This document shows, piece after piece, positions 23,590 to 40,282 of a stretch of DNA of 64,000 nucleotides. The DNA is from Sphingorhabdus sp. GTDB lineage: Bacteria > Pseudomonadota > Alphaproteobacteria > Sphingomonadales > Sphingomonadaceae. The stretch is taken from assembly GCA_028279555.1 (NCBI GenBank), contig JANQNO010000008.1:399678-463677 (forward strand), in the 5' to 3' direction. Numbering within the stretch: position 1 is the first letter of the stretch; the number at the start of each line of letters is the position of its first letter. A program made the position numbers and the translations under genes. The notes beneath the pieces are model-generated. The model was not told the DNA's origin, made no database searches, and saw only the letters and a list, made by a program, of their open reading frames with translations.

Positions 23590-24135
23590 TCAAACCGCCA
23601 TCTCGTGGTGCTGTGCATAGAGCTTCTTGCGCGCATAATGCAGCCGGGTTTTGACGGTGTTGGCCGGGCAACCCAGAATGTCGGCAATATCCGACAGCGG
23701 CAATTCCTCATAATAGAAGAGCTGGACCACCTCGCGGTGCTGCAGGCTGAGCTGAGCCAATGCCGTCTTCAGCCATTCGGCATCGCTGAGCGATGCAGCC
23801 TGCTGCTCGGGATCGGGGCTCTCGTCGATTTCAACCGGACCGGACTGCGCCTGCAAGTCGACTTTTTGATCGCCGAATTTGCGCAGCCAGTCGACCGCCT
23901 TGTTGCGCACGACGCGCCTGATCCATCCCGCCGCATTGCCGCGCGCGGAATATTTGGCGGCATTCTTCCACAGGTCGAGAAAGGCCTCATCGACAACATC
24001 CTCGGCCGCCTCCCGGTCGCCGGCCAGGATTGCCATCGCATAGGCGGTGAGCCGCTTCTGGTGAATGCGGTAATAATCCGAAAAGGCCGCGCGGTCCCCC
24101 TTCGCGATCCTCGCAAGCATGTCGCTATCCTGCAT
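23590..24135 (-). CDS. ECF-type RNA polymerase sigma factor
   Basis: 181 residues from the ATG at 24135, chosen because GGGAGG sits upstream at ideal spacing. Region 2 runs about residues 10-80 (AEDVVDEAFLDLWKNAAKY, GWIRRVVRNKAVDWLR). Region 4 covers about 120-170 (LSLQHREVVQLFYYEELPLSDIA, ANTVKTRLHYARKKL). It directs polymerase to extracytoplasmic-stress-type promoters. It lies just behind a methyltransferase-like gene and diverges from an operon containing an anti-sigma-like gene (31334-32002), its most likely partner. Confidence 0.92.
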   Translation of the reverse strand: MQDSDMLARIAKGDRAAFSDYYRIHQKRLTAYAMAILAGDREAAEDVVDEAFLDLWKNAAKYSARGNAAGWIRRVVRNKAVDWLRKFGDQKVDLQAQSGPVEIDESPDPEQQAASLSDAEWLKTALAQLSLQHREVVQLFYYEELPLSDIADILGCPANTVKTRLHYARKKLYAQHHEMAV

Positions 24136-24156
24136 GATTTTTCCTCCCAGCATGAT

Positions 24157-24906
24157 CTATGCCGCCTGTCTTTTCTGCATCTCGCTCCAGGCCAGGCTGC
24201 CGCTGGCGTCATGGAACTGCGCGAATGAAAGACCGGCTGCTGCCGCGATCTGCGCGAGCGCATCGTCGCGGTGGCATTGAACGGTTTGTTTTTCACAGAT
24301 GATCTTCCAGCCCATCCCGAGATGGTTGGGCGCGAAGCTGGACAGGGTCAGGCAGCCCGAAGCCGCCAGCAGCGCGGCGGCGCGGCCGACAAATTTTTGC
24401 AGTTCGTCGCGTGTCATCGCATCGGCCAGCGCAGGCGCGAGAATGCGGTCGAATTTCCGCCCCAGCGTCTCGGCCGCGGCTATCTCGGCTACACAATGCA
24501 GATCGGCAAGCGGCTCCTTGGCGAGAAAGTCTTCTACTTTCCGGCCCGGCGAACCGATCAAGCAGATGGCCTTGCCCGATTTGGAGGCCTCTTCGATCAC
24601 CGAAAGTGTCAGTTTTTCCCGCAGCCTCTGCCCGCGCTCTGTCGACAGTCTGGACACGGCATAATGGAGCCTGTCTGCGGTGGTGGAGCCCGGTTCTTCA
24701 GGAGCCGTTCCATTGCCGCGCAGCTTGACGAAGCGCGCCAGCGGATGCGCCTGAAGCAGCCGGTTCAGCCGGGCGGTATCGATCCCCGCCGCCAATGCAC
24801 CATCGAGCGTGCCGGCGAGCAGCAATATGGCTTCGTCAAATCCTGCCGTTTCCACCTGGAGAAGCAGCTGATCGAAAATCTGTTGAAGATGGGTGTCGCT
24901 TTGCAT
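24157..24906 (-). CDS. degenerate class I methyltransferase-like protein
   Basis: 249 residues from the ATG at 24906; an upstream TTG at 24957 is possible and neither has a good ribosome site. The second half reads like a worn SAM-methyltransferase fold: ICLIGSPGRKVEDFL at the motif I position, FDRILAPALADAM as motif IV-like, and AAALLAASGCLTLSSFAP as the late strand. The E/DxGxGxG signature is missing, so SAM binding is doubtful. It sits 21 nt before the sigma gene and is probably co-transcribed, suggesting a regulatory or structural role. Confidence 0.55.
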   Translation of the reverse strand: MQSDTHLQQIFDQLLLQVETAGFDEAILLLAGTLDGALAAGIDTARLNRLLQAHPLARFVKLRGNGTAPEEPGSTTADRLHYAVSRLSTERGQRLREKLTLSVIEEASKSGKAICLIGSPGRKVEDFLAKEPLADLHCVAEIAAAETLGRKFDRILAPALADAMTRDELQKFVGRAAALLAASGCLTLSSFAPNHLGMGWKIICEKQTVQCHRDDALAQIAAAAGLSFAQFHDASGSLAWSEMQKRQAA

Positions 24907-25029
24907 GCCAAACGCAATAAGTCGGCAGCGTCGGGGCGATGTGAGCGCGGCGTCCAAAAAATGTGAAAAAGCCCGTGAATTTTACATTCAAGCTGATATT
25001 CGTGGAGTCAAACGGGGGAGCAACAATCC

Positions 25030-26709
25030 ATGTTGCCAGATGGCAGTGCCTTCAAACTGGCATTGTTGGGGCCGTTCCGGTTGGAAAGCCCTGACGGGTC
25101 GCGAATTGAAATCAGGAGCAAGCGCGGACAGGCGCTGCTCGCGATGCTCGCTGCAGCGGAAAATGGGGAACGCAGCCGCAGCTGGCTGCAGGAAAAATTG
25201 TGGGGATCAAGAGCGCCGGAGCAGGCCAATGCCAGCCTGCGCCGGGAACTGTCCAATCTCAGAAAACTGACCAACGCCGAATATGATCTGCTCGAATCCG
25301 ACAATGGCCGGGCGTGGCTCGATCTAGACCTGATGGATGTCGATATCCGCACACAAAATGGGCATTCGCTCGACGAGTTCCTGGAAGGGCTGGATATTCC
25401 CGGCGAAGAAGCCTTTGAAGACTGGCTGCGCGCAGAGAGGGCGGCGATCCGCGGGCGGATGGAGGCTGGGCGAAGCGAAAGCGGAGACGCCCCATATCCG
25501 CCCCCTGCAAGCCAGATCGACATCAGGGAATTTTCCGAGAAGCCGGCAATCGCCGTGCTGCCCTTTCAAACCCACGGCGAAGACCCCTTGCTCGAACAAA
25601 TTGCGCATGGTTTGAGCGAGGATCTGATCAATCATCTTTCGCGGCTCCGGTGGTTGCCTGTCATTGCGCGCAGCTCGAGCTTTGCAGACGATCTGAGACA
25701 TGTCGATGCCGACGAGGCCGGCAAGCAGCTTGGCGCGCAATATATTGTCGAAGGCACCTTGAGAAAGACCGGAGAGCAGGCGACGCTGATGCCGATGCTG
25801 ATCGACATGCGCAGCGGCCAGTCGATCTGGTCTGAAAAAATCGACCTGCCGGCGGTCGATGAGGCGGATGCACTGGAACGGCTGACCACCGAAATTACCA
25901 CCGCATTGGGAACGCAGGTTGATATCAGGGAGCAATCGCGCGCGCAGCGCAGCGCCCAGAGCGGTTCCATCAATCAGCTGATCTGGCGCGGCCGCTGGCA
26001 TCTGAACCGGCTAACCAAGGAAGATTTCGTTCAGGCCGAAGCGTATTTCGAAGAGGCGCTGCGGCTGGAGCCCAACTCGCCCGAAGCGCTGATCCAGATG
26101 ACCTGGGTCAGGCTCTGGAATTTATGGTTTGCCCGCGGCAGCGAAGCGAAAATTCGCGAAGTGCGCAAAATGGCGCAAAAGGCAATCATCGCCGACTATG
26201 ACGATGCGCGCGGCCACATGCTTGCCGGAATAGCCGAGACATGGCTGAAGCAGCCCTTGCGCTCGCGGGCGCTTCTTGAAAGGGCGATCGAACTCAACCC
26301 CAGCCTGGTGCTCGCGCATGCGCATTACGGCGCAACCTTTTTCTTTGCAGGCGAGCCTGAAAAGGCAATCGGACCGATCGATATCGCCATCCGGCTGAGC
26401 CCGAACGACCAGCAGCTATTTTATATTCTTGGCGAACGGGCGATGGCCAATCTGATGCTCGAAAATTATGGCGAGGCCATAGCCGACGCCGATCAGTCGA
26501 TCCTGCGGCGCCCCGGCTACTGGTATGCCCATATGGTGAAGGCCAATGCGCTTGTCGGAGCCGAGAGAATGGAGGATGCCAAGACGGCCATGCAGGAACT
26601 GATGGCGTCCACGCCAGACTTTGAACCGGAGTATATTCGCTGGCTCCCCTTCCCCGATTCAGGCTGGCCGGACAAGCTGCGTAACGGATTGAACCTTTTG
26701 CTGAACTAA
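25030..26709 (+). CDS. SARP-type winged-helix / TolB-like / TPR regulator
   Basis: 559 residues with CGGGGGAG before the ATG. Residues 8-105 form a SARP/OmpR-type DNA-binding domain (KLALLGPFRLESPDGSRIE, LQEKLWGSRAPEQANASLRR, LSNLRKL). Residues about 175-285 match the TolB N-terminal-like domain of CadC/adenylate-cyclase-type regulators (AIAVLPFQ, HGLSEDLINHLSRLRWLPVI, IVEGTLRKTG). From about 310 there are TPR repeats (AEAYFEEALRLEPNSPEALI and later copies). No membrane segment is seen, so it is cytoplasmic. It precedes the P450-DyP gene by 32 nt and likely controls this locus. Confidence 0.88.
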   Translation: MLPDGSAFKLALLGPFRLESPDGSRIEIRSKRGQALLAMLAAAENGERSRSWLQEKLWGSRAPEQANASLRRELSNLRKLTNAEYDLLESDNGRAWLDLDLMDVDIRTQNGHSLDEFLEGLDIPGEEAFEDWLRAERAAIRGRMEAGRSESGDAPYPPPASQIDIREFSEKPAIAVLPFQTHGEDPLLEQIAHGLSEDLINHLSRLRWLPVIARSSSFADDLRHVDADEAGKQLGAQYIVEGTLRKTGEQATLMPMLIDMRSGQSIWSEKIDLPAVDEADALERLTTEITTALGTQVDIREQSRAQRSAQSGSINQLIWRGRWHLNRLTKEDFVQAEAYFEEALRLEPNSPEALIQMTWVRLWNLWFARGSEAKIREVRKMAQKAIIADYDDARGHMLAGIAETWLKQPLRSRALLERAIELNPSLVLAHAHYGATFFFAGEPEKAIGPIDIAIRLSPNDQQLFYILGERAMANLMLENYGEAIADADQSILRRPGYWYAHMVKANALVGAERMEDAKTAMQELMASTPDFEPEYIRWLPFPDSGWPDKLRNGLNLLLN

Positions 26710-26741: not shown

Positions 26742-29700
26742 ATGCCGCAATCAAAATACTATAAAACGGTGGAACAGCGTCTGGCCAAATATGGCGGGCC
26801 GCGAAGCGAAGCGCTGCCGCCCTTCGACCTGCAGCAGATCGCAGCCAAAAGCTGGTTTCAGGCGCAGAAATCGAAGGCAACGCAAGCGCTTCTAAAGCCA
26901 ATTTACCGCTTCGGCCGCGGTTTCATGCCGGTCATGAATCTGGCAGGGATAACGCATATCGTGCGCGACAGCGAAGTGCGACAGGTGCTGGCAAGGCCGC
27001 AGGATTTCCCCGTCCCCTTCGGCCCCGAGATGAAGGCGCTGGCGGGCGGTGCGACATTCGTGCTGGGGCTCGAAGGCGAAGAACATACGCGCCAAAATGC
27101 GCTAATCCACAAAATCGTCCGCCCGTCGGATGCGGAGCGGATCGTCAAGCTGGCAAGGAAATTCAGCGAAGCTCTCATCGAAAACAGCGCGGGCCGGATC
27201 GACGCCGTCAACGATTACTTCAAGCGCGTGGCAGCGGAAATCTGCGTTCACTATTTCGGTTTCTCGGTGCAGGATTCCGACGCTTTTGCAGACTGGACCA
27301 TCGCCACCTCGGCGCTGCTCTTTGCCGACCCCTATGGCGACGAGAATACCGCCGACCTCGCCTTCAATGGCGCAGCGCGGCTGCGCGCCGTTATCGACAA
27401 TTCGGTTTCGCGGCTAAAGCGGCTGATGGAAAAAGGCGCGCTTGCAGAAGATGGCGGCGACACACTTCTCGAACGGCTTCTGACTTTGCAGCTGAGCGGC
27501 GAAGAGCAAATCACGGATGCTGAAATCCGCGCCATATTATATGGCCTGGTTGCAGGTTTCATTCCGACCAACACGCTGGCCGCCGCCAAGATGCTCGAGG
27601 AGCTTGTCCGCAGGCCCGATGCCTACAAATCGGCCACGGAAGCAGCCGCCAAAGGCGAGCGAGAGACACTGAAAAAGATACTGCTGGAGGCAAGCCGGCT
27701 CAATCCGGGGTTGGCACCCGGCCAATTCCGCTATTGCCCCCGCGACACGCATATCGAGGTCGACGGCAAGCAGAAGAAAATCAAGGCCGGCTCGCTGCTG
27801 ATGGTCTCGACCATGTCGGCGATGCGCGACAAAAGGGCGTTCGCGAAGCCGCAAAAATTCTGGCCCGAGCGCACTGGTGAGGACGGCGAATGGGCCGAAC
27901 CCGATCTGGTTTTTGGTGCCGGCATTCATGTTTGTATCGGCAAACATCTCGCCATCGAGCAGATTACCGAGACGGCAATGCTGCTGCTTGCTCAGAAATC
28001 CGTCCGCCCGGCACCGGGCAAAGCCGGCAGAATGCGGCTTTTGGGGCCGGCACCGCGGCATATGGAATTCGTCTATGAGACGCCTGCTGCCAAACAGTCG
28101 ATGTTTATCGTACTGGCCGATGTCGAAGACGGCATCTCGAAAGAGCAGGCGGACGGCGTCATCGCGCGGCTCGGCAACCCGGCAGGAAGCGGGATACGCG
28201 CCGCGATGAATGCCACTGGCATTGTCCATTTCACCTCGCTCTCGACGATCCAGACCGAAAAGGCGTTGAAGCTGGCTTTCGAACTCAGCGTCGATGGCGA
28301 GATTGACGATGCGCTGGCCTTGATCGCGCAGCATGCCGGTGAGTATCTGCGCCCGGCATTCGCGCTTGCGGGCCTGGCGGAGAATGACGATCTGGCCCAG
28401 TTCATGTCCCGCCATGTCGTCACCTTGCATGCCAAAATGTGGGGCGCGACGGGGCGCAACTATAACGGCCTCACCGAATTTCCCGTCGCCAAGGTGGAAA
28501 AACAGGCGCGCTTCGCCGATTTTGCAGGCCGCGTCCTGCGCGACTATGTGGCGACCGAAACCGCCCGGGGAAGCCACCCGACGCTGGTGCTCGGCCATCT
28601 GCGGCGTATCCTGCGGCAAGATTCGGTGCTCAAACGCGAAGCCACACCTGCACAATTGGCGCTGATGCAGGAGGCCGACCACGAAGGCTTCGATGCCTTC
28701 CAGCTGGTGACGCAGAAAATGCGGCTGAAACTGACCGCCTATCGCGAGCGGTCCCACTGGCAACGCGCCCTGGATTTCCTCAAGACCCGCGATGCCTTTG
28801 TCTTCTACAATCCGTTTTTCCTGCTCTTCGCGCTGTCCTGTTTTCTCTTCTGGCCGGCCATCGGCGGATCGCTGCTTCCCAAAATCCTGATCGTCGCGAT
28901 GCTCGCCTTTCTGTCCGCGACGGCGCTCGGCGCGCTCATAATCGGAATCTTTCTTGCGCTGGTCCGTTTTCATGAGGAACGCGACAGCGTCTATGAAGAT
29001 GATCCGCCGCTCGCCAAGCTGCGCGCGATCATCGCGGCAGAAAATCCGCCAGGATATGAGCAGAACCACGTTATGGCGGTGGGCAAGCTGAAACCCGGCC
29101 TGTTCAGAAAGATGGTCCATGCCTTCTCGCTCTGGTCGATCGGCATGTCGGTCAAACACTGGTTCCGGCCCGGCCTGATCAACCATATGGGAACAATCCA
29201 CTATGCCCGCTGGTGGCGCATTCCGGGCACAGAGACGGTTTCCTTCTACTCCAATTTCGACGGTAGCTGGGAGAATTATCTGGAAGATTTCATCATGCGC
29301 AACCGCTGGGGGCAATCGGTGGGGTGGAGCAACTGGCAGGGGTTTCCCAAAACCCGTTTTCTCATGCTCGGCGGGGCAGGCGATGCCGACGGGTTCAAGC
29401 GCTGGGTCCGCATCGTCCAGCAGATTGCGCCCTTCTGGTATTCGCGCTTCCCGGACCTGGCGACCGAGCGGATTCGCAATAACGGGATGATCCATATCGG
29501 CACCGGCCTGGCCGAAAGCGCAACCGAAGCGGAAGAATGGATACGCTGTTTCAGCTCGATGCCGCGGCTTGAGAACCGGATCGAGCATGACGAGGTTCAG
29601 GCGCTGGTCTTCAGGGGCATGAAGCGGCTTCCCTATTCGGCCTGCCTTGCCTTGCAATTGCCGCCCGCGGGAAGCGATCTCGGCGAATATCTATGCTGGA

Positions 29701-31337
29701 TCAGGGGCAAGCCCATGCGCGGCGAGAATTTTGTTCCCCATCGCAATCATGACGCCATCAAACTTCTGATCGAAGAGGGCATTCTGGTGCCGGTTCCGCG
29801 GCCCGAAGGCCAGCAAAAGGAATATGCGCTGGCCCACGCATTGACCGTTACCTTCGGCGACCGCCCGCTCGATGGCGGCCATTCTGCCGGTCTGAACGAA
29901 GCCAGCCCCGCCAATCTGCGCGACGCGCAATCTTCCATGGCGCAGGCGGCCATATTCGGCCTTTCTGCCGCCGGCATCGGCAAGTTCGATGCCCCTCACA
30001 TGGGCGAAGAAGAACTCGCCGAATGCTTCCCGGACAACTTCCGGATGGGCATGGCCGCGCGCGGCCGCGCGCTCGGCGACATCGCGGAGAATGCCCCTGA
30101 AAACTGGCGCTGGAATGATGATCCCCGAGAGGCGGATGCGACGGAAGCCGTCCTGATGCTCTATGCCTCAGACCGGCAAAGCCTCGCCAGGATGGAGCAG
30201 GCGCATAGCGCCCTGCTTGAAAATCATGGCGGGCGGCTACTCACCAAAATAGATTGCGCGCCGGCATGGCCGGACAAACAACGCGCCGATTTCGAGCATT
30301 TCGGCTATCGCGACGGCATTTCGCAGCCCGCCATCAAAGGCAGCAGCCGGGCAACGAAAATGGTCCCCGAACGCGATGTGATCGAACCGGGAGAATTCAT
30401 CCTCGGCTATGGTGACAGTATGGGATATTATCCCGCCTCTCCGCTGCTTCCCGAGGAAGCGGACATGGCTGGCGCGCTGCCGGTCGTGATTGGAGAAAAT
30501 CTCTCCAAATATCCCGATTTCGGAAACCGCAATCTTGCCGATGCGCCGCGCGACCTGGGCCGCAATGGCAGCTTTCTGGTCATCCGCCAGCTCAAACAGG
30601 ACGTCGAGGGTTTCGACAAATTCGTCGGCGATGCAGCCGCCAGCCTCAACAAGGGCGGCTTTGGCGACCTTTATAAGGTGGTCGGGCAAAGCCCCGACAA
30701 GGAATGGGTGAAGGCAAAGCTGATGGGCCGCTGGACCAATGGCAGGCCGCTGGTCGGCAATCCGGTTTTCAAACAATCATCGCCTGAAAGCCTCGCCGCG
30801 GAAACGGAGAATGATTTCTCGTTTGGAGAGGACGACCCGCATGGCCTTGCCTGCCCCTTCGGCTCGCATATCCGCCGCACCAATCCGCGCGACAGCAAGC
30901 TGCCCGGCGATGAAGGCGCGCTCGAAATCTCCAACCGGCACCGTATCCTGCGGCGCGGCCGCCCCTATAGCGATGCGAAGACGGGCGAGAAAGGCCTGCT
31001 CTTTGCCTGCTTTTGCACCGATATCGAACGGCAGTTCGAATTCGTGCAGCAATTCTGGTCCAATGCGCCTTCCTTCCACGGGCTGAAAGACGAGCCCGAC
31101 CCGATCATCGGCGCTTGCCCCATCGATCCGGCAACGGGCGAAAGCAGGGACCGCCTGTTCACCATTCCGACGGCGAGCGGCCCGGTGCGGATCGAGGGCC
31201 TCAAAAACTTCGTGCAGATGATGGGCGGCGGCTATTTCTTCGTGCCCAGCCGTTCGGCGCTTAGCTGGCTCTCCGATACGGCGCTTTATGCGCCTGTGCG
31301 CCGCGCAAGCACCGGCAAGCAGGATGTATCGACATGA
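26742..31337 (+). CDS. cytochrome P450 - membrane hairpin - DyP-type peroxidase fusion protein
   Basis: 1531 residues in one uninterrupted frame with AGAGGGG before the ATG. Residues 1-450 are a cytochrome P450: ExxR at E316-R319 and the haem loop FGAGIHVCIGKH with ligand Cys398. In the I-helix, Ile274-Pro275 stand where oxygen-activating P450s have acid-Thr, as in peroxide-using P450s (CYP152 has Arg-Pro). Residues about 455-680 and 755-1030 look like two related ferredoxin-like modules around two membrane segments (about 686-709 and 711-743). Residues about 1090-1520 are a DyP peroxidase: GYRDG at 1188-1192 with catalytic Asp1191, and proximal His1376 in CPFGSHIRR. No signal peptide, so both haem domains should face the cytoplasm. 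The stop overlaps the anti-sigma-like gene by ATGA. The substrate is unknown. Confidence 0.9.
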   Translation: MPQSKYYKTVEQRLAKYGGPRSEALPPFDLQQIAAKSWFQAQKSKATQALLKPIYRFGRGFMPVMNLAGITHIVRDSEVRQVLARPQDFPVPFGPEMKALAGGATFVLGLEGEEHTRQNALIHKIVRPSDAERIVKLARKFSEALIENSAGRIDAVNDYFKRVAAEICVHYFGFSVQDSDAFADWTIATSALLFADPYGDENTADLAFNGAARLRAVIDNSVSRLKRLMEKGALAEDGGDTLLERLLTLQLSGEEQITDAEIRAILYGLVAGFIPTNTLAAAKMLEELVRRPDAYKSATEAAAKGERETLKKILLEASRLNPGLAPGQFRYCPRDTHIEVDGKQKKIKAGSLLMVSTMSAMRDKRAFAKPQKFWPERTGEDGEWAEPDLVFGAGIHVCIGKHLAIEQITETAMLLLAQKSVRPAPGKAGRMRLLGPAPRHMEFVYETPAAKQSMFIVLADVEDGISKEQADGVIARLGNPAGSGIRAAMNATGIVHFTSLSTIQTEKALKLAFELSVDGEIDDALALIAQHAGEYLRPAFALAGLAENDDLAQFMSRHVVTLHAKMWGATGRNYNGLTEFPVAKVEKQARFADFAGRVLRDYVATETARGSHPTLVLGHLRRILRQDSVLKREATPAQLALMQEADHEGFDAFQLVTQKMRLKLTAYRERSHWQRALDFLKTRDAFVFYNPFFLLFALSCFLFWPAIGGSLLPKILIVAMLAFLSATALGALIIGIFLALVRFHEERDSVYEDDPPLAKLRAIIAAENPPGYEQNHVMAVGKLKPGLFRKMVHAFSLWSIGMSVKHWFRPGLINHMGTIHYARWWRIPGTETVSFYSNFDGSWENYLEDFIMRNRWGQSVGWSNWQGFPKTRFLMLGGAGDADGFKRWVRIVQQIAPFWYSRFPDLATERIRNNGMIHIGTGLAESATEAEEWIRCFSSMPRLENRIEHDEVQALVFRGMKRLPYSACLALQLPPAGSDLGEYLCWIRGKPMRGENFVPHRNHDAIKLLIEEGILVPVPRPEGQQKEYALAHALTVTFGDRPLDGGHSAGLNEASPANLRDAQSSMAQAAIFGLSAAGIGKFDAPHMGEEELAECFPDNFRMGMAARGRALGDIAENAPENWRWNDDPREADATEAVLMLYASDRQSLARMEQAHSALLENHGGRLLTKIDCAPAWPDKQRADFEHFGYRDGISQPAIKGSSRATKMVPERDVIEPGEFILGYGDSMGYYPASPLLPEEADMAGALPVVIGENLSKYPDFGNRNLADAPRDLGRNGSFLVIRQLKQDVEGFDKFVGDAAASLNKGGFGDLYKVVGQSPDKEWVKAKLMGRWTNGRPLVGNPVFKQSSPESLAAETENDFSFGEDDPHGLACPFGSHIRRTNPRDSKLPGDEGALEISNRHRILRRGRPYSDAKTGEKGLLFACFCTDIERQFEFVQQFWSNAPSFHGLKDEPDPIIGACPIDPATGESRDRLFTIPTASGPVRIEGLKNFVQMMGGGYFFVPSRSALSWLSDTALYAPVRRASTGKQDVST

Positions 31338-32002
31338 ATTGGGAAGATGCCAGCGCGCTGGAGGCTCTGCTTCCCGAATATATCAGCGGCACGCTTTCTG
31401 CCGCGGATACGCAGCGCGTGCGCGAGGCGCTGGAGAAATCGCCGGAATTGCGCGCCGCCTATGAGCGCGAATGGCATCTGAATGCACGCATCAAAAGTGG
31501 GATGAATATGATGGCAGACGAGACCGACAAGAACAGCCGCAAGAGGCATGACGATCTGATGAAGGCGGCTGCGGCCGACGATGCCGCCTCAAGCGATGCT
31601 GGCAAAGAAAAAACGACCCTCGCGCACGCGCTTTCTTTCCTCAGCCCGAAAAAATGGCATCCCGCCATATCGCTTTCGGTGGCGCTCGCCGTTCCCTTGC
31701 AGGCCGCGGTGATCGCCGGGCAGGCAACGGCCATCGCTTCGCTGGAGGATGAAAATTTCCGCCTCGCCTCGGGGCCCTGCCCAGATGAAAGCAGCAAAAG
31801 CAGCATTATTGCTGAGTTTTCGGGTGATGCGCGCTGGCAGGATGTTGCAGCCCTGCTCGATGACGAAGAGCTTATCATATACAAACGCGGCGACTTCGGT
31901 GTGCTGACCTTGCGCAGCAAGAAGGAGGGGACCGCGCTGAACAACCAGATTGAAAGATTGAAGGCGTCTCCGCTTGTGACCAGTGCAGCACCGGCGAAAT
32001 GA
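31334..32002 (+). CDS. membrane anti-sigma-factor-like protein
   Basis: 222 residues. Residues 8-50 have the N-terminal pattern of anti-sigma factors (EALLPEYISGTLSAADTQRV, then LEKSPELRAAYEREW) but lack the zinc-binding HxxxCxxC. One membrane segment at about 111-135 is followed by a roughly 85-residue periplasmic part. It overlaps both neighbours by ATGA, so it is co-translated with the P450-DyP fusion and the subtilase. The best partner is the ECF sigma at 23590-24135. The membrane-protease neighbour suggests release by regulated proteolysis, which is inference. Confidence 0.78.
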   Translation: MNWEDASALEALLPEYISGTLSAADTQRVREALEKSPELRAAYEREWHLNARIKSGMNMMADETDKNSRKRHDDLMKAAAADDAASSDAGKEKTTLAHALSFLSPKKWHPAISLSVALAVPLQAAVIAGQATAIASLEDENFRLASGPCPDESSKSSIIAEFSGDARWQDVAALLDDEELIIYKRGDFGVLTLRSKKEGTALNNQIERLKASPLVTSAAPAK

Positions 32003-33768
32003 GGAAATTGCTGTTTTTCTTTTTGTTGGGCATGCTCTTGGCAGGGCTGGTACCAATCTCCTTCACGCAAAATTTGGAAGCCACCCGTTTAGCCCAGGCC
32101 GACACTGGCCAAAAATGCAGAATCGTCGAGAAATGTCCGCCCGCGGTTTGCCGGGATGAGCGGCAATGTTCGCCCGGCAAATGTCAGACAATCAAGAATT
32201 GTGCCCCTCCGTCTTGTAAAGTTGAACGCAAATGCTCGCCCGGCAAATGCCGGATGGTGGAAGAATGCGGACCCGCCGGCTGCAGGGCCGTAAGAAAATG
32301 CGAACCGGAAAGTTGCCGCGATGTAAGAAATTGCAGGCCGGGGAAATGCACTCAAACGCAAAAATGCGCGCCGCCGGTTTGCAGGCCGGTCAAGAAATGC
32401 ACGCAGGGCAAATGCCAGAAGATCAGGGAATGCCAACCCGCCGAAAAACCGCCGGTCCAGATAGTCGAGACCAACCCCGTGTCCGCAGCCGATGAGCTTT
32501 CACCTGCCGAACCTGTGAACACAGTAGCGGAAATCGAGCCCGACCTCGGCCCGCTCGAAATGGCGGACCGGGACATTCCCGAATTTGTGCCCGGGCAAAT
32601 TCTCTATTTCTCCAGGGCTCCGGCTTCGCGCCTTTCGCAGATCGCCGCAGCCGCCGATGTGGCAATCATCGAAACCATCCTGCTCGACCAGATCGGCATA
32701 TCGATGATAACGGCCAGATTAAAGCCGGGTGATACCGTTGGCGGCGCGGGCGCAAGGCTGGAAAAACAGAAGGATGTGCTGTGGGCGCAGCCCAACCATT
32801 ATTTTCAGCTGCTTGGACAGAGTTCGCGCAGCCGGGGCCTCGCGCTGCACGGAATAGGTACAGCTGGCGACCGGCAGAAATCAGGCTCGATCGTTATGAT
32901 AGACAGTCTGGTCGATACCTCCAATGCAGCGCTGGCGGGCGCGGCGATCGAGCAAAAGGGCTATGGCACAAAGGGGCGGCCCGATGCGCATGGCACGGCG
33001 ATCGCCGAATTGCTGGTCGGCACGGGCGACTATGCCGGAGTCGCACGCGGCGCAAAGCTGATCAGCCTGGCCGCTTTCGAACCTACCGAGCAACGCACAT
33101 GGCTCTCGCAAACCCGCTATCTGGCGCAAGCGATGAATGAGGCATCGCGGCTGCGGCCCAATGTCGCCAACCTGTCCTTCGGAGCAAATGCCAGCGACCG
33201 GATTTTGACCCGCCTGCTCAACAAGCTGGAAAGCAGGGGTATCTGCGTTGTCTCTGCTGCCGGCAACGGCAATGGCGGCAAAGTGCTGTTCCCGGCGCGG
33301 CTTGCGACCACGCTTGCGGTGACCGCGATAGACGGGCGCAAACGCGCCTATCGCTATGCCTCCAAGGGCCCCGAAATCAATGTCGCGGCCTGGGGCGTCA
33401 ATCTGAATGCTGCCGTCCCCGGCGGCAGGCGCTCGGTTTCCGGCACGTCCTTCGCAACCGCCATCGTGTCGGGATCGTTGCTCGGTCTCGATGCCTGTTC
33501 GGGCGAATATAGCCCCAAGGCAATGCGCGATTTCGTCACGCGCCATGCGCAGGATCTGGGCGAGAAGGGTCATGACGATATCTTTGGCGCTGGCCTGTTT
33601 CGCCTGTCGGAAGACACAGCAGAAAAGCAATCGAATGATGAAACTACGCCAAAATCCGAGGAGGAAGCGGGCGTTCCGCTTGCCGCCTGGCTTGGCGGTG
33701 CGGGCCTGCTACTGGCCGGGCTTTTCCTGCTGCTCTTCAGGCGGCGACGCAAAAAGCCGGAAGCCTGA
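31999..33768 (+). CDS. membrane-anchored S8 (subtilisin-like) protease with N-terminal cysteine repeats
   Basis: 589 residues. An N-terminal hydrophobic signal (residues 3-22) is followed by ten 11-residue cysteine repeats (residues 40-145). A propeptide-like region comes next, then the S8 domain: Asp in IVMIDSLVD, His in DAHGTAIAELLVG, Ser in SGTSFATAIVSG, with the SAAGNGNGG oxyanion region. A C-terminal hydrophobic helix ending FRRRRKKPEA anchors it, placing the protease in the periplasm. It overlaps the anti-sigma gene by ATGA and ends in a terminator hairpin. Cleavage of the anti-sigma factor or maturation of the exported proteins opposite are possible roles. Confidence 0.9.
   Translation: MRKLLFFFLLGMLLAGLVPISFTQNLEATRLAQADTGQKCRIVEKCPPAVCRDERQCSPGKCQTIKNCAPPSCKVERKCSPGKCRMVEECGPAGCRAVRKCEPESCRDVRNCRPGKCTQTQKCAPPVCRPVKKCTQGKCQKIRECQPAEKPPVQIVETNPVSAADELSPAEPVNTVAEIEPDLGPLEMADRDIPEFVPGQILYFSRAPASRLSQIAAAADVAIIETILLDQIGISMITARLKPGDTVGGAGARLEKQKDVLWAQPNHYFQLLGQSSRSRGLALHGIGTAGDRQKSGSIVMIDSLVDTSNAALAGAAIEQKGYGTKGRPDAHGTAIAELLVGTGDYAGVARGAKLISLAAFEPTEQRTWLSQTRYLAQAMNEASRLRPNVANLSFGANASDRILTRLLNKLESRGICVVSAAGNGNGGKVLFPARLATTLAVTAIDGRKRAYRYASKGPEINVAAWGVNLNAAVPGGRRSVSGTSFATAIVSGSLLGLDACSGEYSPKAMRDFVTRHAQDLGEKGHDDIFGAGLFRLSEDTAEKQSNDETTPKSEEEAGVPLAAWLGGAGLLLAGLFLLLFRRRRKKPEA
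32116..32433 (+). repeat. ten tandem 11-residue (33-nt) cysteine repeats inside the subtilase gene
   Basis: Twenty cysteines alternate strictly as C-x5-C-x4-C from residue 40 to 145, making an 11-residue unit with two Cys. Units resemble CRxVxKCxPxx, and several share the DNA CGCCCGGCAAATG. The basic, Pro-rich pattern suggests a disulfide-laddered rod in the periplasm. Confidence 0.9.
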
Positions 33769-33825: not shown

Positions 33826-36039
33826 TCAGAGCGGTTGCGGAATGGCGTTGATGACCTTCGGGGCCTTGTGCTGGATGGGCGGCATGCTGAAATTCCTGAT
33901 GCTGATCGTTGTGATCTGGCCGGTCTTTGCATTGTAGATTTCGACCGGCCTGTATTTGGTCATCGGCGAGGCATTATTCTGCCGCGGGACGCGGAAGATC
34001 AGCGATGTGCCGGTGCAATCATTATTCATCCCGCCGCCATTGTGAATGGGACGCAGATTGGTGGAAAAGCTGTACCATCTGTCCAGCTTGACCGGGGCAG
34101 TCTGCCAGAATGTCGGTGTGCTGTTGCCGCCAACGCCGACGGTAAACTGACCCTGGTTGATCGATGCCGAACCGAGCGGAGCGCCTGCAACCGGCAGCTG
34201 CGTCGAGGCAGGCGTTGCGCCATTGCCGCGATCCTTCAGGCTGGCAATCAGCGTCGCGCCGGAAACTTGTGCATTCTGGCTTTGTGCATCGCTGACATAT
34301 TGCTGCAATGTGGCTTCGACCTTGGCCCGGTTCATGAGAACAGATGAAGACGCGTTGACCCCCTGCGTCACGAGCGGAAACTCGTCGAGCAATTTTGCCT
34401 GGTCGCTATAGGGCGTGCAGGCATCGGGGACGATCACAACCGAGACAAGCGATGTCCCCTGCGAAACCGCACCTAGCGAATCCGTCGCCTGCAAGGTGAA
34501 ATTCAGATTTGTCGGCGTTGAAACGGTCGGAGCGGTGAATGTCGGCGTCGCGCTGCTTGGATTGCTTAGCGTTACCGCAGGTCCAAGCGTCTGTGTCCAT
34601 TGGTAGCTGAGCGGTGTGTGATTATCCGGATCCGAAGACTGGCTTGCATCCAGCTGCACCCCCGGACGGCCGCTATAAACATAGCTCCAGTTGACACCGG
34701 GAATGGCGGTTGGCGGCTGATTGGCCTGAACATTGCCGGGCTTGTAGTGAGCAAGCTTGTTGGCTGTTCCGCCCGGAATATTGCCGAGCACACCGACGGT
34801 CGCGCGGCTGTTCACTTCCTGGATTACCTGCGCGGCGCTGAGCGAGGGTTGCTCGCTCCAGATCGAGGCAGCGATCCCGGCTACCATGGGCGCGGAAAAG
34901 GAGGTCCCGTTGGCGGGGCCATAGCTTCCGCCATTGCGCGCGCCATTCACATTCACGCCGGGCGCGTGAAGATCGACGCAGTTGCCCCTGTTGGAAAAGG
35001 TCGCACGCTGGTCGTTGATCGCACTCGCGCCCACGGTCAGGATATCCATGACCATATTGGGCGAACGGATACAGGCAAGCCCGTAATTGTTACCCGAGGA
35101 CGTTACGAAAACGACGCCCTGATTCACTGCATCGACCGCGGCATTGTTGAGGCTACCGATGGTACCGGGGAACGAGACGCTCAGATTGATGACGGCGCGC
35201 CCGGTCTTTGTGTTGAGCACATGGTTGATGCCGGCGATAACCTCGAACTGGCTGCCAAAGCCAGCACATGTGGCAACCTTCAGATCATGTATCTGCGCGC
35301 TGCGGGCAATCCCGCGCGTTGCCCCTGCCGCAAATGACGCCGAATAGGTTCCGTGATTGTCGCAGGCCTGTGCGGTTTCATTCGTGAAATTCATTGTTTC
35401 GATCACGCGCCCGCCAAATTCTGCATGCGATGCATCCACGCCGGTATCCAGAATATAGATATGGATACCCGATGCGCCGACATATTCATGGCTCGAATCC
35501 AGTGGAAGGTTGACCTGATCGATCCGGTCGCTGCCCCAATTTTGCGGATTTGTATCCGGGCTATCAAGCGTCGGTGCCACTTCCTTCTCGACATCGTCGA
35601 TGCGGGAATCGCGCTTCAGCGCTTCGACCTGCTGGCCGGTCAGCCCCTTGACCTGAACGACATTGACCACGCCGGTGCTTGCCCGGATAGAGCGCAGGCT
35701 GCGCTGCGACGCCCCCACACGCCCCAGCAATTCCCGCGCCAGACGCAGTGCCTGGGCATCTGCGGTACGCTGACGGCCCCTGCCCTTTGGAAAACGCACA
35801 TTTTTCGACAGGACCAGAATATGGCCCTGTTCGCTGGTTTCCTGGGCTCGAACCGGAGCCGGAAGCCGACCGCGCGGGTTTGCCCGGACCGGCCGTGCCT
35901 CCCGCGCTTGTGCGACCGATAGAATCTTGCGATTCTCGCTTTCCCCGCCTTTCGAATTCTCGGCCGACAGCGCAGGCACTGTCGCGGCAGCGATGCAGAT
36001 CGAGGCCGATGAGAGCATACAAAATTTTTTATGGGGCAT
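33826..36039 (-). CDS. secreted S8 subtilase with PKD-like domain
   Basis: 737 residues with AAGGA before the ATG. A Sec signal (residues 1-26) and an inhibitor-I9-type propeptide (about 70-150) precede the S8 domain: Asp in IYILDTGVD, His in CDNHGTYSASFAAG, Ser in ANGTSFSAPMVAG, with VTSSGNNYG as the oxyanion segment. A PKD/REJ-like beta domain follows (LDASQSSDPDNHTPLSYQW), then about 200 residues unlike anything I recognise. No membrane anchor or barrel is seen, so it is periplasmic or secreted. It is the last of four exported-protein genes, and its PKD-like domain matches those in the nearby autotransporter. Confidence 0.9.
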   Translation of the reverse strand: MPHKKFCMLSSASICIAAATVPALSAENSKGGESENRKILSVAQAREARPVRANPRGRLPAPVRAQETSEQGHILVLSKNVRFPKGRGRQRTADAQALRLARELLGRVGASQRSLRSIRASTGVVNVVQVKGLTGQQVEALKRDSRIDDVEKEVAPTLDSPDTNPQNWGSDRIDQVNLPLDSSHEYVGASGIHIYILDTGVDASHAEFGGRVIETMNFTNETAQACDNHGTYSASFAAGATRGIARSAQIHDLKVATCAGFGSQFEVIAGINHVLNTKTGRAVINLSVSFPGTIGSLNNAAVDAVNQGVVFVTSSGNNYGLACIRSPNMVMDILTVGASAINDQRATFSNRGNCVDLHAPGVNVNGARNGGSYGPANGTSFSAPMVAGIAASIWSEQPSLSAAQVIQEVNSRATVGVLGNIPGGTANKLAHYKPGNVQANQPPTAIPGVNWSYVYSGRPGVQLDASQSSDPDNHTPLSYQWTQTLGPAVTLSNPSSATPTFTAPTVSTPTNLNFTLQATDSLGAVSQGTSLVSVVIVPDACTPYSDQAKLLDEFPLVTQGVNASSSVLMNRAKVEATLQQYVSDAQSQNAQVSGATLIASLKDRGNGATPASTQLPVAGAPLGSASINQGQFTVGVGGNSTPTFWQTAPVKLDRWYSFSTNLRPIHNGGGMNNDCTGTSLIFRVPRQNNASPMTKYRPVEIYNAKTGQITTISIRNFSMPPIQHKAPKVINAIPQPL

Positions 36040-36079
36040 GACAAATTCCTTTGGAAGAGTAGTAGTTTAGGATCGTCGT

Positions 36080-37162
36080 TCAGTTCTGATCCTTGATATA
36101 AATGAGAAACTGCGATGCGTCGGACGGGCTGCTATTACGCAACCAGTTGGCGGGTTCGCGCAGCAGATGTTGATTGGGTCCTGTTGCCGACACAAGCCCG
36201 CCAGCATTCCATCCTCCACGATTAACCGTCCGGTCGCGTGCCTGGTGAAAATTGGCCACGGTGAAGCCGGTCCCAAGCTGCTGGCATTCGGCATGCATCG
36301 CCGACTTGGTGGCATTCTGGACCAGCAGTTTGCCCGCCGAAACCGCATATTCCACACCCGACCAGCCATAATAGAAGCGCGGACGCCAGTTGGACTGGTT
36401 GTAGCGGGCATTATAGCTCGCCGGCACCGACATGGCGCTGCCCGGTTTGACACAGAGCACATAGCGCTGCTCGCTTGCGGCCACCTCTCCATCATAGGGG
36501 TCGGAAGCCCCTTCCGATCCCATCAGAACCCATCCGGGAGAGGGGTCGTAGCTGCCGGGGTCGGTATACCCTTCGGCCCAGCGCACCGACCAGCTCGTGC
36601 CGCGCCCGGACAGGAAATTCACATCCGGCCCCGGCGGTGGCGGCGTGGAACCTGTGGTCGTGCCTCCACTGTTGGCACCGCTGCCGCTCGGTCCGCCATG
36701 ACCGCTCTGTTTGGTAGCTATCGCCCCGCCGACGATATAGCCCTGCCAGCTGGGGGTGGTTTTGCGCAGCAGCAAGCGCGCCTGAATGCTTGTGTTTGCG
36801 CTATTCGCATCGGCGGGGGAAAGCTCGAAGGGAATCTGGCATTCGAGCGCGCGATTCTGCGCCCCCGTACGATTGCAATATTGGCCAACATCGATCAGCG
36901 CGGCAGAAGTATTGCTGGCACTGATCTCCAGATATTCCTCGCTGAATGGCGGAAAGGCCTGACCGGCATTGACAACCGCATATATCTGCACCGTCACCAC
37001 AGGTCCGGCAGGGCTATATTTGCCCTGCGTCACGACGATGTCGGGATTATTGCGAGTCAGCGTGCTATCGGGCGGTATGTTGGCCAGCGCGGCGGTCGGT
37101 GCACAGATAGCCGCCAGCGCAGTGCCAGCAAACAGGCCCAAAATTTTCGACTTGGATTGCAT
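36080..37162 (-). CDS. exported protein of unknown function
   Basis: 360 residues with AGGAG before the ATG and a clear signal peptide (residues 1-27, cleavage near ALA-N). The N-terminal half (30-150) has a beta-rich pattern with one Cys pair (GQYCNR, LECQIP). A Gly/Ser/Pro linker around 155-180 leads to a second region rich in Trp and Tyr (WRPRFYYGWSGVEY) with a second Cys pair. I do not recognise the family. It lies between the autotransporter and the secreted subtilase in one minus-strand run, 40 nt upstream of the protease gene. Confidence 0.8.
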   Translation of the reverse strand: MQSKSKILGLFAGTALAAICAPTAALANIPPDSTLTRNNPDIVVTQGKYSPAGPVVTVQIYAVVNAGQAFPPFSEEYLEISASNTSAALIDVGQYCNRTGAQNRALECQIPFELSPADANSANTSIQARLLLRKTTPSWQGYIVGGAIATKQSGHGGPSGSGANSGGTTTGSTPPPPGPDVNFLSGRGTSWSVRWAEGYTDPGSYDPSPGWVLMGSEGASDPYDGEVAASEQRYVLCVKPGSAMSVPASYNARYNQSNWRPRFYYGWSGVEYAVSAGKLLVQNATKSAMHAECQQLGTGFTVANFHQARDRTVNRGGWNAGGLVSATGPNQHLLREPANWLRNSSPSDASQFLIYIKDQN

Positions 37163-37176
37163 ATTGTTTCTCCTGA

Positions 37177-39222
37177 TCAGAAGGTGAAGCCCAGGGTCAG
37201 ATGGCCGCCGGTTGCGCGGTATCCGCTGTCGCCGATCCCGTCATGGAAGCCGCTGGCCGAAAGGCGCAGGCCGGCCGCCGATAAAAGGTCGAACCCGGTC
37301 TCGACGCGCAGCCGTGTGTCGCGCGCCAGCCCCGTGCCGACCGCGTCGCCAAAGCTGAAGATGCCGCGCGCTTCGACAAAGGGCCGAAGGCTCCAGTCAT
37401 CGGAAAGCCTGGCGTGATACATGATCCGAGGCGCGGCCGTGACCTGACCATATTCGAAGCTTTGCGACGGGATGAAGGTGCCGAGACTATCGGTATAGCT
37501 CTTCTGCGTTTCGGCCAGATAATGCACCGACGCCTCTGGCCGGATGATGAGACCTTCTGCGGGTGAAAACTCACCTGTCAGCGTCGCGGACAGCAGGCCG
37601 CGGTTGGTATCGAAACTATCGGAATAGGTGCCGAAGGGGCTGATATCGTTGCGGCTCTCACCCAGCGCCGCCCGGGCATCGAGGAACAGGTTGCCGGTCA
37701 ACCGGATTGTTGCATAGGGACCAGCCATCCAGCCCTCGCCTTGGGTCACGCCGGTGGTCACGCTGCTGTCAAAATCGATCCGGTCATACTGGCCCATCAG
37801 GCCGACAAGCAGATTGTCATTCGCCGCATAGTCCGCACCGCCATAAAGGATCGCCGCCTTGCCGCCGCGTGCGCTGTGCCGATAGTCGCTGTAATAGCCT
37901 TCGGCCCAGATATCGAAACTTCCGCCCACGCCCCCACCGCGCGGAACGCCGATGGCGGGCGCAAAGCTGCTGGCGAAGCTGGCCTGCTGTCCACCGACAT
38001 TTGCGCGCAGCGGCAATTTTTCGGAACCCGGAACCGGGATACCGGAAATCGTGGTTCCATTCCTGCCTGTGCCGCTTCGTCCCTGCAACCGGTCTATGCG
38101 CCGCTGAATATCGGGCTGGTGCGACAGGATCAGATTGGCCCTTTCGGCCAGAAAATCGCCGATCTGATCCTGCGCGGTGGCAACATTGTCGAGCACCGAA
38201 ATCGTCACAGTGTCGGCGAGCGAATTTGCAGCGCCGTCATTGACGATCAGCTGAAACACCAGCGGCGCACCGCCGGTGCCGCCCGGCGCGGTAAAGCTGG
38301 GCGATACCCCATTCGGATCGGAGAGTGTCACGGCCGGACCTGACAGTTGCACCCAGCTATAGGTGAGCGCATCATTGTCTGGATCGCTGGACCCGCTGCC
38401 ATCCAGAGTGACCGTGGAGCCCGGAATGACATTCGATTGATCGGAACCCGCATTGGCCGATGGCGCGCTGTTCACGATGTTGATCGCGACCGAATCCGGT
38501 GCCGAATTGACGGCCCCGTCATTGACGACCAGATTGAATGTCACCGTCACATTGCCGAGCCCCGACGGCACGGTGAAGCTGGGCATCGCCGAGGTCGGAT
38601 TGCTGAGCGTGATGGAAGGCCCCGACGCCTGCGTCCAGCTGTAGGTCAGCGGATCGCTATCCGGATCGGATGACGCTGTCCCGTCGAGCGTTACCAGAGT
38701 GCCGGCGGTCAGGCCCGACTGGTCCGGCCCCGCATTGGCGGTCGGCGGTGAATTCAGCGGCAGGCAGGGAAATGGCCCCGCGGTCAGCGCCGATTGCGGA
38801 ATCGGGATTTGCGCCAGGATAGCGCCGGGAACGGAGGCGCTGAGATTGCCGGGATCGGGCGTCCCTTCCCAGATCGTCAGGAACATCGGGTTCATGATGT
38901 TGGCGCGGTCGATAAAGCCCTGCCCCGGAATCGTGGAGCCAACGGAAATGGCCCGTCCCTGCGCCGGATTGGGCTGACCAAGATTGTTGATGCCCATGGT
39001 TCCCGAAGCGTCGGTGACGCCGACATGATAGTAATCGAGGCCAAAGCGATCATCGACGATACCGCGAATTATCTGGTCATTGGTCGAAAGCTCGCAGATC
39101 GGCCCGCCGAAATTGGTGATGTTGAAACTGGTGTTGGTGGATGTGACATTGATGGCCGCGGCAGGCGCGGACCAGCCGATGGCGACCAGCATCCCCAATC
39201 CGGCAAAAATAAACCTGCTCAT
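37177..39222 (-). CDS. autotransporter with two PKD-like repeats
   Basis: 681 residues from the ATG at 39222; the frame extends upstream to 39381 through Pro-rich sequence that is not credible. A signal peptide (about 1-24) is followed by an unknown domain. Then come two PKD/REJ-like repeats starting PPTANAGPDQS and APSANAGSDQS, each with LDGxxSSDPDxDxLTYSW. The C-terminal 270 residues are an outer-membrane autotransporter barrel (FDIWAEGYYSDYRHSA, then alternating strands) ending in Phe. The passenger is therefore displayed on or released from the cell surface. Confidence 0.88.
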   Translation of the reverse strand: MSRFIFAGLGMLVAIGWSAPAAAINVTSTNTSFNITNFGGPICELSTNDQIIRGIVDDRFGLDYYHVGVTDASGTMGINNLGQPNPAQGRAISVGSTIPGQGFIDRANIMNPMFLTIWEGTPDPGNLSASVPGAILAQIPIPQSALTAGPFPCLPLNSPPTANAGPDQSGLTAGTLVTLDGTASSDPDSDPLTYSWTQASGPSITLSNPTSAMPSFTVPSGLGNVTVTFNLVVNDGAVNSAPDSVAINIVNSAPSANAGSDQSNVIPGSTVTLDGSGSSDPDNDALTYSWVQLSGPAVTLSDPNGVSPSFTAPGGTGGAPLVFQLIVNDGAANSLADTVTISVLDNVATAQDQIGDFLAERANLILSHQPDIQRRIDRLQGRSGTGRNGTTISGIPVPGSEKLPLRANVGGQQASFASSFAPAIGVPRGGGVGGSFDIWAEGYYSDYRHSARGGKAAILYGGADYAANDNLLVGLMGQYDRIDFDSSVTTGVTQGEGWMAGPYATIRLTGNLFLDARAALGESRNDISPFGTYSDSFDTNRGLLSATLTGEFSPAEGLIIRPEASVHYLAETQKSYTDSLGTFIPSQSFEYGQVTAAPRIMYHARLSDDWSLRPFVEARGIFSFGDAVGTGLARDTRLRVETGFDLLSAAGLRLSASGFHDGIGDSGYRATGGHLTLGFTF

Positions 39223-39340
39223 TTTGCTATCATCCTGCTTTGTCTTTTCCGCCCGCCTGTTGGCGGGATTTTCGGTTATTGCCGGGGGCTGCGGCGGCGG
39301 CGGGTTGGAGGTTGCGCCGCCGCAGCAGGGAGAAAGCGGA

Positions 39341-40282
39341 TCAATTACGTAGGCGAGGCCGCGGGCCTGGGCTGTCCGCAATTGGAGGCGGGGCCTTCAC
39401 ATGGCGTTTGGTCGACACCAGGCAGACCTTGTCAGCATGCCCAGTGCCCAGATAGCCAGTGCCAAGCTGATTCGTGACCTCGACATTGTGCTGGCGGGCT
39501 GCCCGCCGACCGGTGTCAAAGATTTCGTAACAGACGAGATGATCGCGATAACGCTTGGCCATGTCGGCTGGCCGCACACGGTCACGCGGATTGAGCGCAA
39601 CTGGATTGCAAAGCTCGACCGGGTTGCCAACGAGCGTGCGCGTCTGACCGAACTGGTCGACCATGGTAAAGGTACGATTGGTTTCGCCGCCGCGATGCCG
39701 CATCAGGTCATAGCAGCGATAGGCCTTGGCCTGTTTGCCAGCCGCGCCTGCCGCAGGACGCCCCTGGAAACCGATTTCGCGAATTTCAACGCGGCGAATG
39801 CCCGTTGTCGCGCGCACCGAATGCACGGTCATGGCCACGCGCTTCACGCCCTGTTTTGAAAAATTGACAATTTTCGGCGCGACCTGTCCCGCAGCCGTTA
39901 CCTGATTGCTGATGTCGCTGCCGATAACATTGCCGGCCGCATCGAAGAAACGCAGGCTGAATCGCTCGACCCCCTCGGCACGGACATTGATGTCATTCCA
40001 GAGATAGAATGCGGTAAGGTCATAAGGTTGGTCGAGCGTGATGGTGATCGTGCCCGTCGCCCTATTATTCGCCTGATAGCCGTTAAAGGGGCTGGCGTCA
40101 GATACATTGCCGTCGGTCATTTCAGATAGCGGGAAACGGCTTGTGCCGCTGCCCAGCGATGCGTCCACCGAAATGGAAAGTTTCTGATTACCCATGATAT
40201 TCTGTGCGGCTGCCGGTTGCGCCGCCATGAGCGTCGCCAGCGTGGCAATTGCCGAGCATGTTGCAATAGTCGTTTTTCGCAT
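39341..40282 (-). CDS. exported F5/8C (discoidin)-like protein with Cys-containing C-terminal domain
   Basis: 313 residues with an ideal AAGGAGG before the ATG and a signal peptide ending AAA-Q at residue 27. Residues about 35-170 form a beta-sandwich pattern like F5/8 type C domains (TDGNVSDASPFNGYQA, LDQPYDLTAFYLWNDI, VRRVEIREIGF-type strand). Residues about 185-300 contain four spaced Cys (RCYDLM, VELCNP, LVCYEIF, DKVCLV), as in domains of surface proteins of unknown role. It is the first gene of the four-gene exported cluster. Carbohydrate or surface binding is a guess from fold type. Confidence 0.75.
   Translation of the reverse strand: MRKTTIATCSAIATLATLMAAQPAAAQNIMGNQKLSISVDASLGSGTSRFPLSEMTDGNVSDASPFNGYQANNRATGTITITLDQPYDLTAFYLWNDINVRAEGVERFSLRFFDAAGNVIGSDISNQVTAAGQVAPKIVNFSKQGVKRVAMTVHSVRATTGIRRVEIREIGFQGRPAAGAAGKQAKAYRCYDLMRHRGGETNRTFTMVDQFGQTRTLVGNPVELCNPVALNPRDRVRPADMAKRYRDHLVCYEIFDTGRRAARQHNVEVTNQLGTGYLGTGHADKVCLVSTKRHVKAPPPIADSPGPRPRLRN

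Follow-up and report, generated by a model that had tools for sequence, protein, structure and literature searches.

A cytochrome P450 and a DyP-type peroxidase joined in one chain in a conserved bacterial protein family

Does a bacterial gene genuinely encode a cytochrome P450 and a DyP-type peroxidase in a single chain, and what might two such haem enzymes do together? The question was raised by a 64,000-nucleotide stretch of Sphingorhabdus sp. DNA (the window), in which positions 26742-31337 form one unbroken frame of 1531 codons. The gene (26742..31337, +) encodes a P450 domain, a middle part and a DyP domain, in that order, and the protein was aligned with 115 relatives of 1400-1650 aa that were 41-67% identical to it. 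An assembly error or a frameshift joining two genes was rejected because the 115 relatives share a like length; the same domain order was found in these relatives and on the complete, named plasmid pNL2. The single frame and the relatives of like length bear out what an earlier note on this DNA had proposed, a P450 and a DyP in one 1531-residue chain, and we take the fusion as confirmed: it is real and conserved across a family. Counting the fusion, the genome that carries it has a single DyP match and six matches to P450.

Both haem domains keep the residues expected of their families. A Pfam search of the fusion protein at E up to 1 returned only PF00067, with 53.3 bits against a cut-off of 22.8, and PF20628. 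The P450 domain (residues 1-450; 26742..28091, +) has the P450 fold, the Cys thiolate loop and the ExxR motif, with Cys398 as the predicted haem thiolate ligand (27933..27935, +) and E316 and R319 as the ExxR pair. The DyP-type peroxidase domain (residues 1030-1515; 29829..31286, +) matches both the DyP fold and the family model, and contains Asp1191 of the GxxDG motif (30312..30314, +), His1376 as the predicted proximal haem ligand (30867..30869, +) and an RRG motif at 1404-1406 that includes a candidate distal Arg. All of these residues were invariant in 116/116 aligned rows (the 115 relatives and the window protein), in agreement with the earlier claim that Cys398, His1376 and the DyP Asp are kept. 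The closest solved P450s by fold were ordinary bacterial ones, and the best NCBIfam score of the P450 part was to a cyclodipeptide-associated P450 model, far below its cut-off.

The two haem domains are separated by a middle part of less familiar character. Middle domain A (residues 452-660; 28095..28721, +) is predicted to be alpha/beta from its conservation and predicted secondary structure, and gave weak profile matches in the separate middle proteins of two loci, L134 and L149 (12 and 19 bits). It is followed by a predicted membrane hairpin (residues 684-745; 28791..28976, +), and the earlier suggestion that such a hairpin joins the domains stands as a prediction from hydropathy and a pair of long helices in the model. 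Middle domain B (residues 745-975; 28974..29666, +), with the motif SNFDGSWENYLEDF, is among the best conserved stretches of the protein. Comparison by hhalign of the middle domains with each other or with the DyP halves gave no signal, but nor did comparison of the two DyP halves, which leaves this negative without weight; the fold-search lists for the fusion model were filled by DyP or P450 matches. Stand-alone relatives of the middle part were also found (P0138-P0147, 412-451 aa), with no Pfam domain listed; both of those examined, P0142 and P0143, contain an internal repeat.

No description of a P450-DyP fusion was found in the open-access literature, searched through titles and the starts of abstracts, with most subscription papers outside that search; this agrees with the earlier statement that no characterised example was known. 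Both domains are already machine-annotated, because the database names of some relatives carry them ('Dyp-type peroxidase family', 'cytochrome P450' and 'cytochrome P450/deferrochelatase/peroxidase EfeB'). Despite this annotation, we found no account of the pairing in the open-access literature searched.

To describe how widely the arrangement occurs, we used a set of 98 loci, made up of 77 loci from among the best matches of a scan of named genome contigs (more exist), the window and 20 Sphingomonadales regions. P450, middle part and DyP lay in one frame in 46 of the 98, and six had a P450 gene beside a middle-DyP gene, counting an interrupted fusion (L010). In 22 loci middle B was joined to DyP with no P450 recognised by the family profile, although a diverged P450 lies adjacent in some of them, such as L066 (Pfam E 9.4e-10). 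The remainder had separate genes, with a P450 in 19 loci and without one in 5. Among genomes of the window's order, 40/346 matched at E 1e-20, and at least 7 of these 40, the window's own counted, carry the full one-frame fusion. The fusion is therefore an accessory gene, as only 2 of 8 listed genomes of the same genus have a match. Plasmid records gave 54 matches at E 1e-30, two of them over at least 80% of the query. One is SARO_RS19865 on pNL2 of Novosphingobium aromaticivorans DSM 12444, in which GFVPTN and the motifs of the Cys, Asp and His are kept; a SARP-family regulator gene lies directly upstream of it, preceded in turn by acyl-CoA dehydrogenase and MaoC genes. Two loci on rhizobial plasmids and one from Myxococcales were observed alongside these. 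In L139 (Pararhizobium qamdonense plasmid p2, NZ_CP119567.1) the fusion gene is flanked immediately by an adenylate/guanylate cyclase gene on its upstream side and a Crp/Fnr regulator on its downstream side, a hint that cyclic nucleotides control some members. L138 (Rhizobium leguminosarum plasmid, NZ_CP016290.1) encodes a middle-DyP protein with no annotated P450 nearby; genes for a CHAT-domain protein and for a member of the endonuclease/exonuclease/phosphatase family lie near it, as does a DpnII-type restriction system. L083 (Myxococcales) has a divergent middle-DyP protein, part of which also matches the 391-aa protein P0165.

P450 and DyP were encoded as different frames in 27 loci, which span Pseudomonadota, Bacteroidota, Gemmatimonadota and Rokubacteria, and 24 of the pairs lie on one strand. 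Many of these genes overlap or lie within tens of bases of each other. Several overlaps are of a few bases; those of hundreds of bases in L052, L054, L071 and L127 are overstated, since the frames there run from stop to stop. The order middle, DyP, P450 was seen in Bacteroidota (L075, L078) and Sphingomonadales (L120, L121, L123-L128), and the order P450, middle B, a gene of about 200 aa, DyP in L116-L119 and L147; L122 has no recognisable middle gene. When a separate P450 served as the query of a second scan, it matched 7/385 genomes of the class, its own included; five of the six others had middle and DyP genes adjoining and one (L152) did not. In a tree of the P450s (71 rows), all 46 fused P450s fell in one clade with support 99/91, and the sole further row inside it was L010, whose frame is interrupted by one stop codon. 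A single fusion event, in a gene cluster that already existed, is therefore the probable origin.

The I-helix of the P450 carries the motif G-F-I-P-T-N (residues 272-277; 27555..27572, +), with P275, T276 and N277 in 116/116 rows; the acid-alcohol pair (D/E-T) of classical O2-dependent P450s is absent. The I-helix acid of P450s helps to activate O2 and delivers protons to bound O2. In an ungapped alignment with close relatives, Pro275 and Thr276 fall at the places of the acid and the threonine in the O2-activating pair. The register is fixed by the alignment of GAIPTTSKCV in L147 with GAVETTSKCV in L078, and a MAFFT alignment with two other P450s supports it. Some distant P450s align one place off, in which case Ile or Val replaces the acid and Pro replaces the threonine; as aligned, the acid is missing in either register. 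Asn277 as an axial amide of the prostacyclin synthase type was considered and dropped: as we read the published motifs, the Asn of that enzyme occupies the Thr position, and Asn277 lies one or two places further on.

The same position was read locus by locus. The acid was absent from all 46 fused loci (P in 45, A in 1), and the threonine was kept in every one. Separate P450s paired with DyP (27 loci) had P in 19 loci and an acid, D or E, in 7 (L052, L054, L061, L071, L075, L078 and L151), where the acid-alcohol pair is kept; the remaining one (L081, Proteobacteria) is divergent, poorly alignable at the I-helix and could not be read. DyP pairing thus does not require acid loss. The threonine is also replaced, by Gln, in six separate loci (L122-L125, L148 and L149). 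Three relatives without a DyP in the fetched stretch (L131, L132 and L152) all had E. The Novosphingobium DyP-partner P450s L066:6451-7938 and L047:6519-7922 keep GPHVCYG with its Cys and have neither acid nor Thr. As a control, the I-helix was readable in 2 of 5 other P450 loci of the window's own genome (L004, L007 and L009 lay outside the alignment coverage), and L005 had the acid and L006 did not. Since L006 is an unrelated P450, acid loss also occurs outside the P450-DyP family. In a phmmer alignment EryK, which its PDB name calls a hydroxylase, carries Ile at the acid position. EryK uses O2. Judged from these alignments, acid loss by itself is not diagnostic of peroxide use; the locus-by-locus counts indicate that it is older than the fusion and associated with DyP pairing, neither always nor only there.

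The genes around the fusion include predicted regulators. A TPR regulator gene (25030..26709, +), recognised by TPR Pfam hits, lies 32 bases upstream; its HilA- and AfsR-type NCBIfam matches were far below cut-off. Among the 40 fused loci whose upstream gene could be read, 38 have a member of this regulator's similarity cluster immediately upstream, L057 and L063 being the exceptions; L014 and L032 (cut at the contig start), L023 and L024 (ambiguous), L130 and L135 are outside this count. TPRs were present in all three members of the cluster scanned: the window's, that of L027 (with BTAD) and that of L050 (with a class III cyclase domain). On the other strand are an ECF sigma factor (23590..24153, -; Sigma70_r2 and r4), with a similar gene in the same position in 4 loci including the window, and a 266-aa protein (24157..24957, -) with no Pfam match and similar genes in 5 loci, window counted. 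Downstream, the start of a zf-HC2 anti-sigma-like gene (31334..32002, +; PF13490, 22.9 bits, cut-off 22.2) overlaps the fusion stop, and similar genes adjoin the core in 8 loci, window counted. It is itself overlapped by a subtilase (S8) protease gene (31999..33768, +; PF00082, E 4.8e-24), with similar genes in 9 loci, window counted. Next to this cluster lie a further subtilase, which has a PKD domain, and an autotransporter with PKD repeats (33826-39381, -). At the end of the window, a tandem pair of P450 genes at 61245-62555 and 62592-63875 (+) both scored best with the SolI model (336.5 and 323.8 bits), below its cut-off of 850.

A role in anti-phage defence was considered and rejected. 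PADLOC at E 1e-5 gave no match for the fusion protein (P0001), the regulator, the anti-sigma-like protein, the patatin, the GGDEF protein, P0164 or P0165; its sole match was the class III cyclase of L129, to PycC models. The main text of the conflict-system paper eLife 52696 never mentions P450, peroxidase or patatin.

Lipid-related genes were found near relatives of the fusion. A lipid-hydrolase-type gene of one of four families adjoins the P450 in 7 of the 27 separate-gene loci: a patatin in L116-L119 (E about 1e-32, all four loci from one genus), a GDPD in L121 (E 1.7e-50), a divergent Tle1-like phospholipase in L147 (E 8.3e-74) and an LCAT-like hydrolase in L151 (E 1.7e-09). These counts are partly selected, because the neighbours of separate-gene loci were picked by eye. 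A profile search found no patatin-like or GDPD-like gene in the other loci of 97. In L133 and L134, an An_peroxidase gene is found at most a few kb from the middle and DyP genes, and there is no P450. The encoded proteins (L133:2545-5910 and L134:1133-4603; 1122 and 1157 aa) have an animal-type haem peroxidase domain and large extra regions, and the best solved relative of the L133 protein is a plant fatty-acid alpha-dioxygenase (E 5.6e-25). P0165 or a relative sits between the An_peroxidase gene and the middle and DyP genes in both loci; P0165 itself matched nothing in Pfam or NCBIfam and nothing meaningful in the PDB, and it may resemble catalase-fold proteins. In L152, a RoxA-like cytochrome c gene (L152:6341-8338) lies directly upstream of an unpaired, acid-bearing P450 relative.

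The neighbours of the fused genes were surveyed separately, using 75 of 96 candidate genes of 120-900 aa at positions -2, +1 and +2. They matched 58 families, and neither ferredoxin or reductase families nor the four lipid-hydrolase families were among the 25 most frequent. Fer4_NifH occurred in two neighbour genes, where it accompanies ParA-type ATPase hits, and alpha/beta-hydrolase families occurred in two.

Our leading explanation, held tentatively and with somewhat less than even confidence, is that the fusion protein oxidises fatty acyl chains at the membrane with peroxide, in place of O2 and an electron-transfer partner. Most simply, the P450 would take its oxygen from peroxide, since the acid is absent, redox-partner families are not among the commonest neighbours and the usual partner is a peroxidase; a lipid substrate is suggested because the hairpin and the lipid genes of the separate relatives point there. 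The hairpin would hold the protein at the membrane, and a lipid hydrolase, of the kind encoded beside the P450 in some separate-gene relatives, would supply the acyl chain. The acid-less P450 would cleave the O-O bond of H2O2 or of a lipid hydroperoxide and use this cleavage to hydroxylate or rearrange the chain, by analogy with peroxide-fed P450s, whether CYP152 enzymes or the P450 half in a fungal dioxygenase fusion. The DyP domain would use this peroxide too, clearing what is left over and perhaps carrying the oxidation of the product a step further, while the middle domains would likely keep the two haem domains joined. The upstream TPR regulator and, in this window, the sigma/anti-sigma pair are predicted to control expression. 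We infer every chemical step of this lipid oxidation. It counts against this reading that the P450s nearest in fold are ordinary bacterial ones. The strongest objections are that other P450s have lost the acid, that seven partners keep it, and that the lipid genes were seen beside separate and not fused genes.

The first two objections lead to the rival that the P450 is an ordinary O2-dependent enzyme fed by a general ferredoxin encoded elsewhere, with the DyP likely destroying or using leaked H2O2. We place this on the unlikely side: seven separate DyP partners retain the acid-alcohol pair, Thr276 is kept in 116/116 rows and EryK also lacks the acid in alignment, yet the acid is gone from 46/46 fused loci and redox-partner families are missing from the 25 commonest of the 58 in the 75 neighbour genes, though such a partner may have its gene at another place in the genome. 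The missing electron donor among the commonest neighbours also counts against the idea that the acid-less P450 is an oxidase releasing H2O2 to feed the DyP as the real catalyst. Breaking the acid-alcohol pair does divert electrons into H2O2 (PMC9112060), and a middle-DyP protein stands without a profile-recognised P450 in 22/98 loci, although some, such as L066, have a diverged P450 adjoining. Yet it is proline specifically, and not any acid loss, that is nearly fixed in the fused clade, and we consider the oxidase improbable.

The third objection concerns the substrate. The same kind of machine could act on an aromatic compound or a secondary metabolite, as DyPs oxidise dyes and lignin models (PMC8230527), the best model of the P450 part is cyclodipeptide-associated, though far below cut-off, and no patatin- or GDPD-type genes were found beside fused genes. 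Against these stand the four lipid-hydrolase-type families beside separate relatives, the two loci with a fatty-acid dioxygenase-like gene near middle and DyP genes, and the predicted hairpin, which points to the membrane; a non-lipid substrate is, in our estimate, clearly unlikely. That the DyP half might deliver or remove haem or iron like EfeB, and not act catalytically with the P450, is suggested by the EfeB name that some sources give to relatives and by a weak match to the EfeB model TIGR01412. We find this scarcely credible: the Asp, His and RRG motif are kept in 116/116 rows, and EfeB structures rank below D. radiodurans DyP. Identity as an EfeB-like deferrochelatase was rejected, TIGR01412 giving 28.2 bits against a cut-off of 428.

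The peroxide-driven lipid oxidation that we favour can be extended to a bacterial oxylipin machine of lipase, peroxide-driven P450, membrane middle part and DyP, which would have existed first as an operon in at least four phyla and then been fused once in Proteobacteria, the change from acid to proline marking a switch from O2 to peroxide. We regard this extension as possible but doubtful. If true, it would be a second kind of peroxidase-P450 fusion, bacterial and with an unrelated peroxidase fold, and a convergent answer to one problem. The family offers a natural comparison between acid-bearing separate, proline-bearing separate and fused P450s, so that the question of an O2-to-peroxide switch is directly testable, and SARO_RS19865 as a named, completely sequenced relative makes experiments practical.

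Among known systems, matched DyP chains in the PDB, such as D. radiodurans DyP (8re2/8re3), are about 280-490 aa with one DyP unit each, whereas the DyP here is the C-terminal third of a larger protein. Bacterial P450s of the CYP134A1/EryK type are closest by sequence and among the closest by fold; they were solved as stand-alone P450s, and the matched chains have no peroxidase domain. CYP152 enzymes lack the acid-alcohol pair and have Arg-Pro there instead; the fusion, in contrast, has Pro at the acid position with the Thr kept and no Arg. It is not assigned to CYP152, as NF053744 was not among the 10 families matching P0001 at E 0.01. Members of CYP152 act on fatty acids with H2O2 as the oxidant (PMC9112060).

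Fungi and oomycetes are known to have peroxidase-P450 fusions, and the fungal single chain makes oxygenated lipids. Fungal PpoA/CYP6001 and the linoleate diol synthases combine a peroxidase-type haem domain with a self-sufficient P450 around a fatty-acid theme (PMC13049297), and the likeness to the bacterial protein lies in having both in one chain. However, the first domain of PpoA-type enzymes is a cyclooxygenase-like haem dioxygenase and their P450 is C-terminal, whereas here the peroxidase is a DyP and the P450 is N-terminal; the middle part with its predicted hairpin is an extra feature of the bacterial fusion. Hydroperoxide making is an activity of the fungal dioxygenase domain, and no such activity is ascribed to the DyP here. 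The animal-type haem peroxidase domain PF03098, a feature of PpoA, was not found in the fusion protein by Pfam at E up to 1. The fungal analogy drawn in the earlier note therefore holds as a resemblance in working, consistent with the lipid hydrolases and the dioxygenase-like gene near some separate-gene relatives; membership in the fungal group is ruled out, because the peroxidase is a DyP and not an animal-type haem peroxidase and the order is reversed. Oomycete CYP5619 (Saprolegnia) has an N-terminal P450 and a C-terminal haem peroxidase/dioxygenase (PMC4486971), and so shares the P450-first order as described there, but its partner is like that of CYP6001 and the bacterial partner is a DyP. 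The PpoA-type and CYP5619 fusions are thus the nearest in design, built with another peroxidase family.
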